A stretch of 64,000 nucleotides of DNA. It comes from Helicobacteraceae bacterium. Lineage in GTDB: Bacteria; Campylobacterota; Campylobacteria; Campylobacterales; SZUA-545. Position numbers and translations under genes: made by a program. Positions 7,401-55,217 of this stretch are shown here, piece by piece. The stretch is from contig JAITUT010000013.1 in assembly GCA_031286325.1 (NCBI GenBank), forward strand, positions 31,752 to 95,751, read 5' to 3'. The stretch's first letter is position 1. Every line of letters begins with the position of its first letter. The notes beneath the pieces were generated by a model. The model was not told where the DNA came from and searched no databases. It was given only the letters and a program-made list of their open reading frames with translations.

Positions 7401-10400
7401 AAGAGTAATCCGAGATCCACCACCAAGTAACCACATCGCCCCACTCGTCAGGCTTGCCCTCGTATCGGCGATCGTATTGATTCTCTTTAATGCCCAGCTT
7501 TTCAAAGATAGATTGGAAGCCGCGATCGCCTAGCGTCCAGCCCGGCACGAAGCGCGGCCTTCTCGCGGCGCCCATACTCGTACTCTTTTCATTGTAATCA
7601 GCCGAATACATAGGCACATCGCAAGCCGAATCGTACGTGCCGCCGCCATAGCGGCAGTCTTCCTTACCCAAAAGGGTCGCGCCGCCTGGAGCGCCTTGTC
7701 CCGGCACCGGATTTTCGACAGTAATGATTTTGCCGTCTTTCTCAAACTTGACCGAGTAAATCCCAAGCGGTCCGTAGGGCCAGAAAGCGTTATTCCCTAT
7801 ATCCTCCACAAAGTATTTTTTACCCGGGAAGAAAATTCCCCGCATATCGTTGTAGGTACCGAGATAGTCGCGCCAGCCCGCTCTGCCGTCAGAGCCTGAT
7901 GATTTACGTTTTAAGAGCTGTTTGCGCACGTCCTCAAATATAGGTTGCGTAACCGGCACAAAGAACGCTAAGCCAAGCTGCGAACAACTATCTTGCTCGC
8001 GCGGCAACAAATCCGAAACATTAAAGGTTTCGTTAGCGTCCAGCGCGACAAACATCGTCATCATACCGCCAGTTTCGTCATCTAGCACCGTTGTTGTATC
8101 GCAGTAGGCGACGAACGGACGTTGCTCGATCGTACGTTTTTCCAGATCGGTTAAGCGCTTGGAGTTTTTCTCAAGGGGGCTCACATAGTAGTGCCCGCTT
8201 TGGAGCTTGCCCTTATTTTTTGGGCTTTCGTTGAGCTGTTTGCACGACTCAAAGGAGTAACGTTGAGCGTTGCCCGAGGCGTTGCCGATCTTGCCGCCCG
8301 TCGGATCAGCGCCTTTTGAGGCTTTGCAATCGCTTTCGCAGTCTACTTCAATTTTATTTCCGCGCACTCCCTCGTTGCCGTCATACTCGTATCTATAATC
8401 GCTTAATTGCGTTAATACAAGCATCGTCGGCTGGCAAGACTGTTGATATGAGTCGCCGTTTGGATTGATCTTCATTATCTGATCGTTCATACCCAAGATA
8501 ACGCCGCTTCTAACCGCTTGCGTGAAAGGAGTTTTACCGCCGCAACTGGGACTAAAGCTGCTCTTATCTCTGTCTATATAGAAAGACGTACCCTGCAAAT
8601 TCAAGTTGCTAAAGCCGGCGATAGGGGTTCCGCCCGACGCGTAGCTAATAAACTTGCCGTTCAAATCCACTCTAAACGATCGCGCAAATTTCGAATCGGT
8701 ACGGTCAAGCTCCGCTAAAGGCAACATCGGGATCGCAACTTTCTGCGCGGGGCGATAGTATTGCTTCCCTTGCATAGTAACAAAGCGGAAGTTGCTGTAA
8801 TCGCTCTGGAACGGCAACGGCAGATAATCTACTGGGAAAGTAGAGGGGTCTTTGGGATCGTATTTACCGCTCATATTTTCGCAATAAACCTCAATCGGCT
8901 CAATACCATTCGGGCGCGTATTGTCCGGATCGACTAAGAAGAATCCGTCTTTGATCGCCTTGCCCTCGCGAGCCGCTTGAGCTTTTAGGTATTTGCAGTT
9001 TTCGCTGTGGCAGATCGTCCCCGCGAAACCTACGCGGCTTCTCGCGGATTCCTCAATCGCGAGATCGCCCATACTCGCGTTGTAGTATCTGATCTTCGCC
9101 TCGTTTAAGACGTCAACGTCGTCTACGATCGTAATAGTTTTAGCGACGCTGATCGTAAATTCCATCTCAAAGGCGTCTCCGCAGCCGAAAAACTCGCCGG
9201 AGATGTTTGAGTCTCTCCTGTCGGCAAAGCAACTATCCCAATCCGCTTGCCGCACGCTGGCAGGTTTGCTTGTCATTCCTTGCTCTACGGGATCAATGCC
9301 GCTCTCAACCGTAGTGATCGTGCAGAAAACCGCCGTGGCGTTCATATCGCAGTTCACCACCGGATCAACCGAGTTTTGCGCGCCGCCGCTTCTGATCGCC
9401 CAGCGAGTTCGTTTGATACTGACATTCCTGATAGAGTTCATATCAAAAAACTCTTTAATGCCGTTATCTTCAAAGTCGTCAAAGATAATAGCGCTATTCG
9501 CGGGCTCTTTACCGCTGTTGTTAAACGAAATTTTGTAGGTTACATTCGCGTCCTCTAAGTTCGGCGCGCCGTCCGCGCCGCAAGTGCCGCTCCCTGGGCT
9601 GTAGCTCACATTCGCTTCTTTGCGGAAGCTATTGCCGAACTCAGGCGCGTAGATCATAGTGGAGAAACCGAAATACGCCAACTGAAACCAGTTGTTGTAG
9701 CCGTCTATGATCACATAAGTTTCGTTCTGATCGTTGCCTAAATGGTTGTGTAAATAATAGGTATGCAGGTCATAGCCGATTATAACTTCGCCCACGTCAG
9801 GCACATCTTGCCCGCCGCGCCCCTCTGGATCGCCGCGATCTATATATGGATAGCCTTGAGGCGTCCTGGAGTTACGGTAATTGCTGCCCATTAGCACGCT
9901 AGGCTCAGCCGTAGGATATTTAAGGGTTCCATAGGTCTTGTTGCCATACGCGCTAAATGTGGGGTATTGCCCTTTTGGAAATTTCCCCCTGCCGACGGGA
10001 CCCACGCTCACAGTAGATTGAAAGGCGTTATCCGCGCCGTTTTCAAAACTTTCCCAATGCTGATATATTCTACCCCACGAGGTATCTACATAGTCCAGTT
10101 TGGGCTGATAGCCCGAAATGGAGTTTTTGTATTCCGCGGGTCTGCGGGTAATGCCGAAGTTAGACGAGGCTGCGAAGCCGCTATACCATTGGCTATCGGC
10201 GGGATCTAAATTTGAATCCCTCGTGGCGTAGTTGGCGTGGTCTATGTTTTTCATTTTGCGATACGCCTCGTGCCCGTAATCATAAGGGAATATGTGTCTG
10301 TATCTGCCTTTCGCGCCGCTTGTTTGAATGGCTTCTATGCTATACATATAAAAGTGCTGTATGTAGTTGCCCAAGAGGTCTCTGCTGCCGCAATGCCTCC

Positions 10401-46930: not shown

Positions 46931-48538
46931 ATGAACGCCGCCGACTCGCAAAATTCGCTTCTAAATATCAAAGAGGCGAGCCTTTGGGCTAGCAGCTTTC
47001 TCGGCAAAAATGTAACCGCGTCAAACATTGCGTATTTGATCCAATACGGCAGAGTGCGCAAGATCGTGGAAAACGGCGCGACTTTGATCGCGCTTGACGA
47101 GCTAAAAAGCTATTATAATTCATATAAAAATTCGCGCGAAAATTTTTTCAAAGATAAACTAGGAGGCGATCTAAATTGGATTTTATCTTTCGAGCAATAT
47201 AAAGAAGCCGAAACGACAAAACATATTCACAGATTGCACCCGTATAAAGGTAAATTTATCCCGCAGCTCGCGGAGTATTTTTTGTGCGATCGCACAGATA
47301 ATTTGAAACGCGAAATTTATTTCAAAAAAGGCGATATTGTTTTAGACCCGTTTTGCGGAAGCGGGACAACTTTGGCGCAAGCAAACGAGCTTTATATCCA
47401 CGCGATCGGCGTGGATATTTCGGAATTTAACGCGCTAATATCAAATTGCAAAATAGCGAAATACGATATTGCGCTTTTGCAATCCAAAATTACAAAAATT
47501 ACAAAAGATTTGGAGGTTTTTGTTAGAGATTCAAACGCGACCCAGTTTGAGGCGAAATTAGCCGAAGAGCTAAAAAGTTTTAACGACAAATATTTTCCCG
47601 CGCAAGAGTATAAATATCTTGTGCGGACGGGCGAAATAGATGAAATTAAATACGGCGCGGAAAAAGAGAAAGAATTTTTGCCAATTTACGAGAATTTGAC
47701 GCGAAAATATAATATAAAATTACGCCAAGAAAAAAGCGAAACTTTTTTAGATAAATGGTATTCAAAACACATCAGAGACGAAATAGATTTTGTTAATGCG
47801 AAAATTCAAGAAATAGACGACGGAAACACGCGAAACATAATAAGCGTTATTTTGAGCCGCGCGATCAGAAGCTGCCGCGCGACGACTCACGCGGATCTGG
47901 CTACTTTAATTGAGCCCGCAACAACTACTTATTATTGCGCGAAACACGGCAAAATTTGCAAACCGATTTTTTCTATAGTTAAATGGTGGAAAACATATTG
48001 CAAAGATACGATTCTGCGTTTAGCGGAATTTGATAAATTACGCACCGATACATACCAAATTTGCTTTGCGGGAGACAGCAAAAATATAGATATTTTTAAT
48101 TGCGTTAAAACGCAAAATAAGGAGTTTTACGAATTGCTTCAAAAGCAAAAAATAAAAGGGATATTTTCATCGCCGCCCTATGTGGGTTTAATTGATTATC
48201 ATGAACAGCACGCATACGCTTACGATCTATTTGCTTTTGAACGCAAAGACGCCCTTGAGATCGGCTCTCTTTCAAACGGACAAACAAGAGAGGCGCGACA
48301 AAATTATGTAGAAGGAGTTGCGGCGGTATTAAATAATTGCAAACGATTTTTAGCGGATAATTACGATGTGTTTCTTGTGGCAAACGACAAACATAATATT
48401 TATCCCGCGATCGCCGAAAAAGCGAATATGGAAATCGCGAATCGTTTTAACCGCCCCGTGCTCAACAGGTCTGAAAAAGACAAAACGGCGTATTCCGAAA
48501 CTATATTTCATTTAAAGGAAAAATATGGCGCTGACTAA
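46931..48538 (+). CDS. Type II DNA methyltransferase with N-terminal HTH-like region
   Basis: DPFCGSGTTLAQANELYIHAIGVDISEFN and FSSPPYVGLIDYHEQHAYAYDLF (SPPY motif). Confidence 0.88.
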   Translation: MNAADSQNSLLNIKEASLWASSFLGKNVTASNIAYLIQYGRVRKIVENGATLIALDELKSYYNSYKNSRENFFKDKLGGDLNWILSFEQYKEAETTKHIHRLHPYKGKFIPQLAEYFLCDRTDNLKREIYFKKGDIVLDPFCGSGTTLAQANELYIHAIGVDISEFNALISNCKIAKYDIALLQSKITKITKDLEVFVRDSNATQFEAKLAEELKSFNDKYFPAQEYKYLVRTGEIDEIKYGAEKEKEFLPIYENLTRKYNIKLRQEKSETFLDKWYSKHIRDEIDFVNAKIQEIDDGNTRNIISVILSRAIRSCRATTHADLATLIEPATTTYYCAKHGKICKPIFSIVKWWKTYCKDTILRLAEFDKLRTDTYQICFAGDSKNIDIFNCVKTQNKEFYELLQKQKIKGIFSSPPYVGLIDYHEQHAYAYDLFAFERKDALEIGSLSNGQTREARQNYVEGVAAVLNNCKRFLADNYDVFLVANDKHNIYPAIAEKANMEIANRFNRPVLNRSEKDKTAYSETIFHLKEKYGAD

Positions 48539-49298
48539 CAGCCAGAAAACCGAAATTAAAAATGTGATTGCGAATTGCTTGCGCAATAAATTTGAAAACT
48601 ATGAAGCAAAAAATAATTTTATGCCGTTTCACTTTCGTTTGCTCGGCAAAGACAGGTTGGCTTTATATTCATTTATGCAATCGCTTTTTACCACATTTGG
48701 CGCTTCGATTTTTGAGCCGGTTGCGGCGGCTTTGGCAAAACCAAAATTCGCTAGAGTTGAGACGCAATATACGGTTGGCGATAAAATTTTCGCCGATTGC
48801 CAGCAAAGCGTGCAGAAAATTATAAATCAATTAACCATAAATCCAAAACCAAACAAGATCGCGGAGTTAGCAATTTTGCAAAGCTCTCTGCGCGGAAATA
48901 TCAACAAATTAAAACCAGCAAAAGTTGATTTGCTTGTAGAGACAAAATTCGGCGAAAAATATATGTTTGATCTTAAAACCGTGAAACCCAATAAAGGCGA
49001 CTTTCAAAAATATAAACAAACTTTATTAGAGTGGGCGGGGATCGCATATACGGCGGACAAAAACGCGAAAGTAAATACATTGATTGCGATCCCATACAAT
49101 CCGTATGAGCCAGAGCCGTATCAATTTTGGACATTAGCTGGAATGCTTGATTTGGAAAACGAGCTCAAGGTCGCTGAAAATTTTTGGGATTTTTTAGGCG
49201 GCGACGGCGCGTATAACGATCTCTTGCATTGCTTTGAGCAAGCGGGCATAGAGCTGCGCCCCGAAATAGACAATTATTTCGCTAGATTTAACGAATAA
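48525..49298 (+). CDS. Type II restriction endonuclease, TdeIII-like
   Basis: KVDLLVETKFGEKYMFDLKTVKPNKGDFQKYKQTLLEWAG (D..D-x-K-like nuclease core); overlaps methyltransferase by 14 nt. Confidence 0.75.
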   Translation: MALTNSQKTEIKNVIANCLRNKFENYEAKNNFMPFHFRLLGKDRLALYSFMQSLFTTFGASIFEPVAAALAKPKFARVETQYTVGDKIFADCQQSVQKIINQLTINPKPNKIAELAILQSSLRGNINKLKPAKVDLLVETKFGEKYMFDLKTVKPNKGDFQKYKQTLLEWAGIAYTADKNAKVNTLIAIPYNPYEPEPYQFWTLAGMLDLENELKVAENFWDFLGGDGAYNDLLHCFEQAGIELRPEIDNYFARFNE

Positions 49299-52528: not shown

Positions 52529-53383
52529 TTAAGGTTTGTCAAAGACAAATTGGTTGCAACCCATTTTGCCCGCGCAGGTGAAAAGCCGCCGCAAAACAAA
52601 GCCCCGATCGCGGAAAAAATAGAAAATCTCCTCCGGTTTCGCGACTTCAAAGGGATAGCCGCCGATCCAATCAACAACATCGTAATATGGCGACATTCCG
52701 CGTGATTTCACGTAATTTTTCCAACGCTCAAAGGGTTTGAGGCGCAAAAAATCCAGCAAAATTATGGGACACCAAAAGCCTGCGAGGGCGAGCGCGATCA
52801 TTAGTTTTTTAATCGGCGCGGGCGATTTGACATACGCGCGTTTGACGACGCGCCATATTTTGGATTTTATCCCCTGATCGTTGTAGATTGAGAGGAAGAG
52901 CTTGCCGTTTTCGCCCGACTTTTGCCCCCCCCCCCCTGCAACCAGCGGCGCGACGAGGGCGAGCGCCTTATACATATCGCCCGTATGGTGCAAAACGCCC
53001 CACGAATAGACGATGTCAAAAGTCCCCAGCGATGCGAGAAATTCCGCGTCCAGCGCGTTTCCTTCCGTGATCCGCCAGCGATCATCGTCCGCGAAATAGC
53101 GTCGTTTCAATTCCAACGCGCAGGCAACGGACTTCGTATCGTAGTCAAAACTCACGACCTCAGCTCCCAGCCGCATAGCCGCGAGCGAGTGGATTCCGCT
53201 GCCGCTGCCGATGTCTAAAAACCTTTTGCCGTTCAGATTTTCACGCTCTAAATTCATTTTAAGGTCTTTTTCAGCCTCGCCAATTCGCTCCTCGTTTAGC
53301 GATCGCAAAAAATCGCTCCAATTTTCGCCGAAAGCGAAGCGATCGCCGCTTTTGATCTCATTTTCCGCTGAATTTTCACTCAT
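52529..53383 (-). CDS. SAM-dependent methyltransferase with internal G12 tract (ON frame)
   Basis: NGKRFLDIGSGSGIHSLAAMRLGAEVVSFDYD...FDIVYSWGVLHHTGDMYKAL; poly-G encodes AGGGGQ. Confidence 0.85.
   Translation of the reverse strand: MSENSAENEIKSGDRFAFGENWSDFLRSLNEERIGEAEKDLKMNLERENLNGKRFLDIGSGSGIHSLAAMRLGAEVVSFDYDTKSVACALELKRRYFADDDRWRITEGNALDAEFLASLGTFDIVYSWGVLHHTGDMYKALALVAPLVAGGGGQKSGENGKLFLSIYNDQGIKSKIWRVVKRAYVKSPAPIKKLMIALALAGFWCPIILLDFLRLKPFERWKNYVKSRGMSPYYDVVDWIGGYPFEVAKPEEIFYFFRDRGFVLRRLFTCAGKMGCNQFVFDKP
52925..52936. repeat. Poly-C12 (poly-G on coding strand) homopolymer
   Basis: Read directly; tttg-C12-tgcaacc. Confidence 0.95.
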
Positions 53384-53582
53384 TTTTTGCCTTTATTAAA
53401 GTTCAGGCGATTTTATCAAAACGCCTCATTTGGGTTTTTTCGCTCTTAATTTGTTTAACGCGAAAAATCCGCTTTCGCGCTCCAACTCACGTTTTTAGCC
53501 ATTGCGTCGCCCTCTTAGCAATTCGCCCCAAATCCAAATAAGATATAATTTTTTTCGGCTTAAATATAAAAAAGGATTTAAT

Positions 53583-55217
53583 GTGATACTTTCAGTTATC
53601 CCGTCAATTCGCGGGAGAATGATCTTTACGATGCTTTTGCTGACATTTGTGGCGAACGCGACCTACACCGTGTTCGCCTACCAGTTGCGCAAAGCGGACG
53701 TTTTGGAGATGATTGACGATCGCCTAAAAATCGCTACGGGCGCGGCGGCGCGCTTTATACCAGAGGAGCTTATAGAGGATGCGGCTGAGGGGAATATAAG
53801 CGCGGAGGCGTTCAACAAATATGCTTTCCTCCTGAAAAAATTCGCCGTAGAGAACGATTTGGAGTATGTTTATCTGCTGATTAAAGCCGCTGACGGCTGG
53901 CGTTTCGCGATAGATATACCCACGGACGAGGAGTTCAAAAAGAATGTAAGCTTACAACCGCTAGAGCTTTACGCCGAACCGCCCGCCGAGCTTGAAAGCG
54001 TCTATAAAAACGGCGGGATCGCCCATATGAACTACTCGGACGAATGGGGCAATCACCGTGGCGCCATAGCGTTGCATCAAACAAAAAGCGGGTTGAAATT
54101 TGTGGCGGCGGCGGATGTCTCCGCCGAAAATTTGGACGAATTTTTAAACCGCACTTTATATGTCAGCTTGATGATTAGCGCCGCGATCTTTGCCGCCAAC
54201 GCGATTATCTGTTATTTGATCGTTACGAAACTTTTGTCGCCGCTCTCCGCCGCGCAGATAGAGATTCGCGCGATTCATGCCGAGATGAATTTGGCGCGCC
54301 GCGCGCAAGAGGGCAAAGACGAGATCGGTCGCCTCTGCACCGATCTAAACGAGCTTTTAACCGACTTGCAAAGGGCGATCGGAGCGGCCAAAGGAAACGC
54401 CGCGGCGAACAGTAACGCGAGCGAACAGTTAAAGATCGGCGGCAACGCGATCTACGAGAGAGTCGCGCAGAGCCGCCGCGCCGCATCCACGATCATAGAG
54501 GACGGCAAAAAGGCGAGCGACCTTTTGCGCACTTTGGAGGCGACATTTTCCGAGAGCGGGCGCGATATGAGCTCAACTGCGAAAGACGTGCGCCACACCA
54601 AAGAGGAAATCGGTAAATTTACCGCGCTCGCCCAGAAAGAGGGCGCGGCTTGGCAGGACATTTCAGAGCGGCTTTCGGGTTTGGCGAAAGAAGCCGATCA
54701 GACGAAGTCTGTTTTGAACACGATAGGCGATATTGCGGATCAGACGAATTTGCTCGCTTTGAACGCCGCGATTGAGGCGGCGCGCGCGGGTGAGCACGGG
54801 CGCGGTTTCGCGGTGGTTGCCGATGAAGTTAGGAAGCTTGCCGAGCGCACGCAGCGCAGCCTCTCTGAAACAAGCGCGACAATTACGGCGATCGTGCAGT
54901 CTATCAGCGACATCGCGTCAATGATGGAGGCAAATTCGGGCGACTTCTTGAAGTTGGTGGATAGCGCGCAGCAAGCGGCGCAAGTTATGGACGGAACAGC
55001 CGCGCAAATCGTCGCCACGCACGATACGATGGAGAAAGCTACCGAAGATTCCGCGTTGATTTTGTCAAAAACGCAAGCGGTTTTAGGGGCGGTTAGCGAG
55101 ATCGGCAAGGCGAGCGAGGAGAGCGCGGCGGCGGTGAAAGAGATTTCGGACGCGGCGGCGAATATCAGCGTAATGAGCGTCTCCCTGAAACGCGAATTAG
55201 ACAAATTTAATGTGTAG
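53583..55217 (+). CDS. Methyl-accepting chemotaxis protein (GTG start likely)
   Basis: [50 protein letters not shown] signature. Confidence 0.94.

Follow-up and report, generated by a model that had tools for sequence, protein, structure and literature searches.

Does a run of twelve G residues inside a methyltransferase gene of an uncultured Helicobacteraceae bacterium act as a phase-variable switch, as was proposed from the sequence of the window (the whole 64,000-nucleotide stretch of DNA analysed here), or is it simply a row of glycine codons? The run lies exactly where the original prediction had placed it, within an ORF that matches Methyltransf_11 (E=3e-10), and the gene is made up as follows:

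52529..53383, minus strand: 284-aa class I SAM-dependent methyltransferase, ON (ORF, Pfam, predicted structure and fold search)
52925..52936, minus strand: G12 homopolymer (C12 on the plus strand), in frame, encoding four Gly as GGG x4
53189..53218, minus strand: SAM-binding motif I LDIGSGSGIH, residues 56-65, 5' of the tract and retained in the OFF products
52646..52702, minus strand: C-terminal conserved block RGMSPYYDVVDWIGGYPFE, residues 228-246, missing from the OFF products

A homopolymer tract in the reading frame of the gene

A run scan of the 64 kb returned C12 at 52925-52936 as the sole homopolymer longer than 8, so that it is indeed the longest of the window; C/G runs occur in lengths up to 7 and then jump to 12, and the remaining 8-mers are all A or T. 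None of 100 dinucleotide-preserving shuffles of the window contained a 12-mer homopolymer, and a first-order model of the window predicts 0.0004 G/C runs of at least 12 per 64 kb. The tract occupies nt 448-459 of the 855-nt ORF, in phase 0 at codon 150, and its context in the protein is LVAPLVA-GGGG-QKSG. GGG accounts for 12.9% of the Gly codons in the long ORFs of the window, and four of them running would be expected by chance at about 3e-4 per Gly4. At least 11 kb separate the tract from each contig end, and both of its flanks are clean coding sequence.

In simulations, tracts of 9, 12 and 15 G remain in frame and give proteins of 283-285 aa, and those of 10, 11, 13, 14 and 16 G shift the frame and give 171-192 aa (171 aa for 11 G, 191 aa for 13 G and 284 aa for 12 G). 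The methyltransferase gene is ON as assembled, its 12 G keeping the 284-aa frame as had been supposed. Slippage by one base in either direction would truncate the protein, as was also foreseen, though slightly later than the predicted half of it: the products of 171 and 191 aa amount to 60-67% of the protein.

The methyltransferase and its probable substrate

Matches to class I SAM methyltransferase families span residues 56-152 (Pfam Methyltransf_11, 3e-10; Methyltransf_12, 5e-10; Methyltransf_25, 8e-9), and the invariant columns of motif I in the homologue alignment are L56, D57, G59, G61, S62, G63 and H65. The predicted structure (mean pLDDT 81.5, pTM 0.81) retrieved UbiG, AtmM and RebM, along with numerous further class I enzymes, with Foldseek (TM about 0.5, E about 1e-10), while a profile of nine homologues searched against the PDB found UbiG (E=1.3e-6) and other small-molecule methyltransferases (E about 1e-6). 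The Rossmann fold, the glycine-rich motif I and the Pfam and fold matches together assign the protein to the class I SAM methyltransferases. The solved enzymes UbiG, AtmM and RebM are Rossmann-fold SAM methyltransferases like the window enzyme, but share only 10-19% identity with it and none of them defines its substrate; neither the solved structures nor the fold search indicated one. NCBIfam matches were far under the curated cut-offs, and no named function could therefore be assigned. In the predicted structure, the tract together with the next four residues lies in a loop (local pLDDT about 63) between helix 137-147 and strand 160-168, which we take to be the pre-beta-5 loop of the Rossmann fold, often reading 'kPGG'. 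The orthologues read APNGKL at this place.

The genomic setting offers further hints. Within the window the gene is isolated, flanked by a SelD-like gene and a chemotaxis gene, with no glycan locus around it:

53502..55217, plus strand: methyl-accepting chemotaxis protein, divergent neighbour, outside any glycan locus (its true start is probably near 53583)

In five related genomes (G001, G003, G004, G006 and G011) the orthologue is found just 3' of an AsnB-like gene, with one gene intervening in G003 and G004, and a glycosyltransferase lies upstream wherever the sequence extends far enough. In the G004 cluster the orthologue is preceded by a GT4 glycosyltransferase gene and followed by one for a NeuB-type synthase; the G013 copies do not have this glycan-locus setting. 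The window's own genome has an AsnB-like gene (59% identity to that of G004) that stops at C62:920, and no methyltransferase follows it; the methyltransferase thus appears to have moved away from its former position. Among 23 distant homologues from other phyla, Glycos_transf_1 was present in 24 of the 90 nearest neighbours, which also include AsnB, flippase, epimerase and polysaccharide-synthesis genes. Because of these AsnB and glycosyltransferase neighbourhoods, in relatives and distant homologues alike, a surface glycan is the likely substrate. A role in surface modification, as originally suggested, is supported by the gene neighbourhoods of the relatives, but not by the position of the window copy outside a glycan locus. 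Elsewhere in the window (46931-49298) there is a type II restriction-modification pair, an N6_N4 methylase (PADLOC MTase_II, E=3e-225) and a TdeIII-type endonuclease (RE_TdeIII, E=6e-77).

Poly-G tracts across the genome and the family

The assembly to which the window belongs comprises 2.05 Mb in 96 contigs and is 98% complete. Against expectations scaled from the window's own base composition (first-order model), it is strikingly rich in G/C runs, with 26 of at least 9 where 1.8 were expected (about 15 times) and 20 of at least 12 where 0.014 were expected, and A/T runs of at least 9 are depleted (22 versus 247 expected). Runs of at least 9 number 39-63 in each of the other six genomes of the genus and 26-54 in three genomes of one sister genus, and 0-1 in five further genera of the family (one genome each). 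Some other families of the order are also rich in poly-G, one of them having 17-68.

Fourteen of the 26 runs are no more than about 100 bp away from the end of a contig, where fewer than one would be expected by chance; assemblers evidently break at the tracts. Such breaks agree with length heterogeneity and also with plain sequencing difficulty. Away from contig ends the tracts are 9-18 long; we place no trust in the lengths seen at contig ends (20-47). In two cases a pair of contig ends represents the two sides of one tract (C79 with G21 and C29 with G47; C90 with G14 and C76 with G36), and the sequence beyond some of the contig-end tracts is G-rich noise.

No match to MutL was found in the window's genome with a model that matches 14 of 14 controls, and the single match to MutS was weak, partial and below the MutS1 cut-off. 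The background thus appears free of MutS1 and MutL, with nothing above cut-off. This condition is typical of Campylobacterales and is not strictly defining for contingency genes.

Besides the window gene, tracts away from contig ends were identified in three methyltransferase genes (on C77, C92 and C33), a GT92 glycosyltransferase gene (C22), two EptA-like phosphoethanolamine transferase genes on C26 (G9 in frame, G15 out of frame) and a type III Mod gene on C49 (MTase_III, E=3e-179) that adjoins a REase_III gene (E=4e-133). The window methyltransferase and the G9 EptA gene are in frame at the tract, and the C33 methyltransferase, the G15 EptA-like gene and Mod are out of frame yet open on either side of it. 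Phase variation typically shows itself in sequence by genes that are open but out of frame, and such genes therefore support a switch; the mixture of in-frame and out-of-frame loci is what phase variation would leave in a consensus genome. In the Mod gene (G000:C49:2682-6498, L173) the tract consists of G17, then C and A10; it lies some 33 codons past the start and is out of frame. This locus is a candidate phasevarion, which would switch DNA methylation and hence many genes at once.

A recent insert in the window gene

Comparison with homologues places the tract in an insert:

52913..52936, minus strand: 24-nt in-frame insert, the tract plus CAAAAGTCGGGC (GGGGQKSG), missing in all eight aligned homologues; its exact edges vary with the alignment

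These 24 extra nucleotides (GGGGGGGGGGGGCAAAAGTCGGGC) set the window gene apart, in frame, from every orthologue. The orthologues (61-68% identity) come from four genomes of the same genus (G001, G003, G004 and G006) and two of the sister genus (G011 and G013), and the tract was absent from all six (the first copy in the case of G013). Nor was there any G/C run of at least 8 near the gene in 80 homologous loci from named genomes. A search of the genome bin for a second copy of the locus with another tract length yielded only paralogues and a 5' fragment.

The wider methyltransferase family does carry tracts, at other positions. A paralogue on C77 of the same genome (44% identity) has G10 some 20 codons ahead of its stop, and the second G013 copy (53% identity) has G13 at about alignment residue 200. 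Since the tract positions differ, the family has gained tracts independently, at least three times at three sites. The tract-free orthologues, together with an in-frame insert in a predicted surface loop, indicate that the window tract is a recent and lineage-specific gain of a putative switch. In an EptA-like gene of the same genome, too, the G9 belongs to a small insert, which a tract-free paralogue on C47 lacks. The other tract genes (Mod, EptA and the C92 methyltransferase) mostly lack close orthologues within the genus, and such matches as there were had no tract.

Several further copies are worth describing. The G005 orthologue is split across C122 and C160 (L063, L082), which overlap by about 100 bp; it has no tract, and its downstream sequence is unlike that of the close relative. 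The G014 copy has a broken frame and no tract. A second methyltransferase family with poly-G is represented by L201 (G013:C29) and L217 (G004:C34), with tracts at different sites; in L201 an out-of-frame G13 occupies the pre-beta-5 loop (VLLDN-G), the one that holds the tract in the window gene. Finally, 174 bp of G000:C86 (L166:8000-8172) match the start of the methyltransferase gene (its first codons and the region before them) at 84% identity, and the N-terminal 30 codons continue in frame into a lipoprotein-like ORF (8068-8691), which could be read as a 5' remnant or as promoter capture.

A probable switch and its alternatives

We consider it likely that the G12 run is a simple-sequence poly-G contingency (phase-variation) tract. 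It has the hallmarks of a contingency gene, i.e. a tract of at least 8 G in an ORF beyond chance, a product truncated by a change of one unit, tracts over-represented genome-wide, and ON and OFF loci coexisting in the same genome. With more than 20 slippery runs in the genome, the G12 tract is very probably one of the known random on/off switches. Replication slippage, presumably at a high rate, would gain or lose one G in the tract. Lengths of 3n would give the full 283-285-aa enzyme (ON), and at other lengths the frame would shift just past the tract and reach a stop after 171-192 aa (OFF), the products being presumably inactive. The poly-Gly would extend the loop ahead of beta-strand 5 in the predicted structure, and given this location the protein should accommodate several lengths that keep the frame. 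The group that the enzyme methylates is probably a sugar or another part of a surface glycan, so that switching would yield cells with and without the methyl decoration, perhaps with escape from phages or from the host as the benefit.

Some features argue against a switch. The six tract-free orthologues give no sign of selective retention, the tract is two thirds toward loss of function and away from the start codon, the products of 171-191 aa retain the SAM-binding half, and the gene is outside a glycan locus. As an alternative, the poly-Gly insertion might be neutral or structural, a loop extension that the protein tolerates, with GGG codons by coincidence and no switch role; the orthologues manage without it, and the insert is in frame in a loop predicted to be flexible. 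We regard this as rather unlikely, given the improbable series of four GGG codons (about 3e-4 per Gly4) and a genome in which G runs, several of which lie out of frame, exceed expectation about 15-fold. Moreover, a G12 tract in cells without MutS1 and MutL would be expected to slip anyway, and this alternative then amounts to switching that is unselected.

It is very unlikely that the tract is truly of another length or a poly-G read error. Problems of this kind affect the assembly, in which 14 of the 26 runs lie near contig ends, noise follows some of them, and the same tract appears at differing lengths in two contig pairs. For G12, we rejected an assembly artefact on the basis of its distance from contig ends (at least 11 kb), its clean coding flanks and the fact that 12 G exactly restores the conserved downstream frame, which a one-base error would break. 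Long homopolymers can also slip in RNA polymerase, and transcriptional or ribosomal slippage would produce full-length and short protein in a fixed ratio from unchanged DNA; this we deem scarcely credible, because the length and frame of the other tracts vary in the DNA itself, and this variation speaks for slippage at the DNA level.

A phase-variable switch, the central proposal for this locus, is thus backed indirectly by the genome-wide poly-G excess and the out-of-frame tracts in otherwise intact genes, by the lack of a MutL match and of any match above the MutS1 cut-off, and by the richness of the genus in poly-G tracts (26-63 per genome, against 0-1 in four of five sampled sister genera). 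The first reading, a probable poly-G phase-variable methyltransferase that is ON in the assembly, was correct in kind.

Comparison with known phase-variable systems

Tracts of this type are well described in the order. In a PhasomeIt survey of 77 Campylobacter genomes, poly-G/C made up 91% of repeats, and SAM-dependent methyltransferases were among the core phase-variable genes of C. fetus (e.g. UbiE_3, CFT03427_0876, _1512 and _1581) (PMC6321876). The window gene resembles this phasome in that poly-G/C in ORFs is the dominant repeat, methyltransferases recur and the host belongs to the same order; it differs in that its lineage is uncultured and its tract a recent insert without counterpart in the orthologues. 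Campylobacter tracts are mostly of 9-10 G, with 13-15 rare (PMC6321876), compared to 9-18 away from contig ends in the window's genome. The parallel originally drawn with Campylobacter accordingly applies at the level of the order and not to Campylobacter itself, the host being from an uncultured lineage.

At the level of single genes, the capsular methyltransferase Cj1420c (CJJ81176_1419) of C. jejuni carries G9, and both ON and OFF forms occur in populations (PMC6097035). Like the window gene it has poly-G inside a methyltransferase ORF, and it is tied to surface-glycan decoration; Cj1420c, however, is in the capsule locus and the window gene outside any glycan locus. H. canadensis also has methyltransferases with internal tracts of G9-13 like that of the window gene (HCAN_0647 methyltransferase, G11, 9-12 in reads; HCAN_0671, G13; HCAN_0659 methylase, G9) (PMC2823697). 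Length variation in reads has been seen in H. canadensis, whereas the window tract is known from one assembly. C-terminal tracts of H. canadensis alter the protein tail (PMC2823697), and a similar tail change would be expected for the C77 paralogue. A literature search for reports of phase variation among termite-gut Helicobacteraceae, or for uncultured genomes in general, yielded no relevant paper.

The most thoroughly studied cases of poly-G phase variation are those of Campylobacter and Helicobacter that are pathogens of vertebrates. Those relatives of the window's genome that bear names are MAGs labelled 'Helicobacteraceae bacterium' (Iy174_bin57, Cc175_bin116 and Im510_bin14); from the form of their names, they appear to be termite-gut MAGs, e.g. 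of the survey PMC9137090. Poly-G on a full scale (26-63 tracts of at least 9 per genome) in an uncultured, apparently termite-gut genus suggests that the habit is of use to commensals or symbionts as well, perhaps in defence against phages. What is new here is the phasome in an uncultured lineage and the recency of the tract, this kind of switch being already well known in the group. Tract-free orthologues alongside paralogues with a tract elsewhere provide a rare view of a stable gene becoming a switch. Possibly, and we offer this tentatively, the genus (its habitat probably the insect gut) repeatedly gains poly-G de novo, as small in-frame loop inserts in surface-modification enzymes, whereby genes stable in its sisters become switches. 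If true, one family with tracts at different sites or none would make the birth of contingency loci traceable.

Poly-G tracts at lipoprotein-type genes

Further tracts of the genome are situated 5' or 3' of lipoprotein-type signal sequences. Four start regions (L032, L035, L039 and L044, on contigs C10, C16, C24 and C32) are alike and, on the poly-C strand, consist of a short leader, C16-23 and, in one of three frames, a signal resembling those of lipoproteins or secreted proteins (e.g. RRYKLVAFAFAALFLVSGC), each region running into a different surface-type protein. This arrangement looks like a reusable, switchable signal-peptide cassette. At other loci (L033, L042, L050, L052 and L053, on C79/C29, C90/C76 and C13) the poly-G comes right after the lipobox cysteine, reading LAGC or IACG.. 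and then poly-Gly, as in a lipoprotein with a poly-Gly linker and a frame set by the tract; two of these lipoproteins are split between contigs at the tract.
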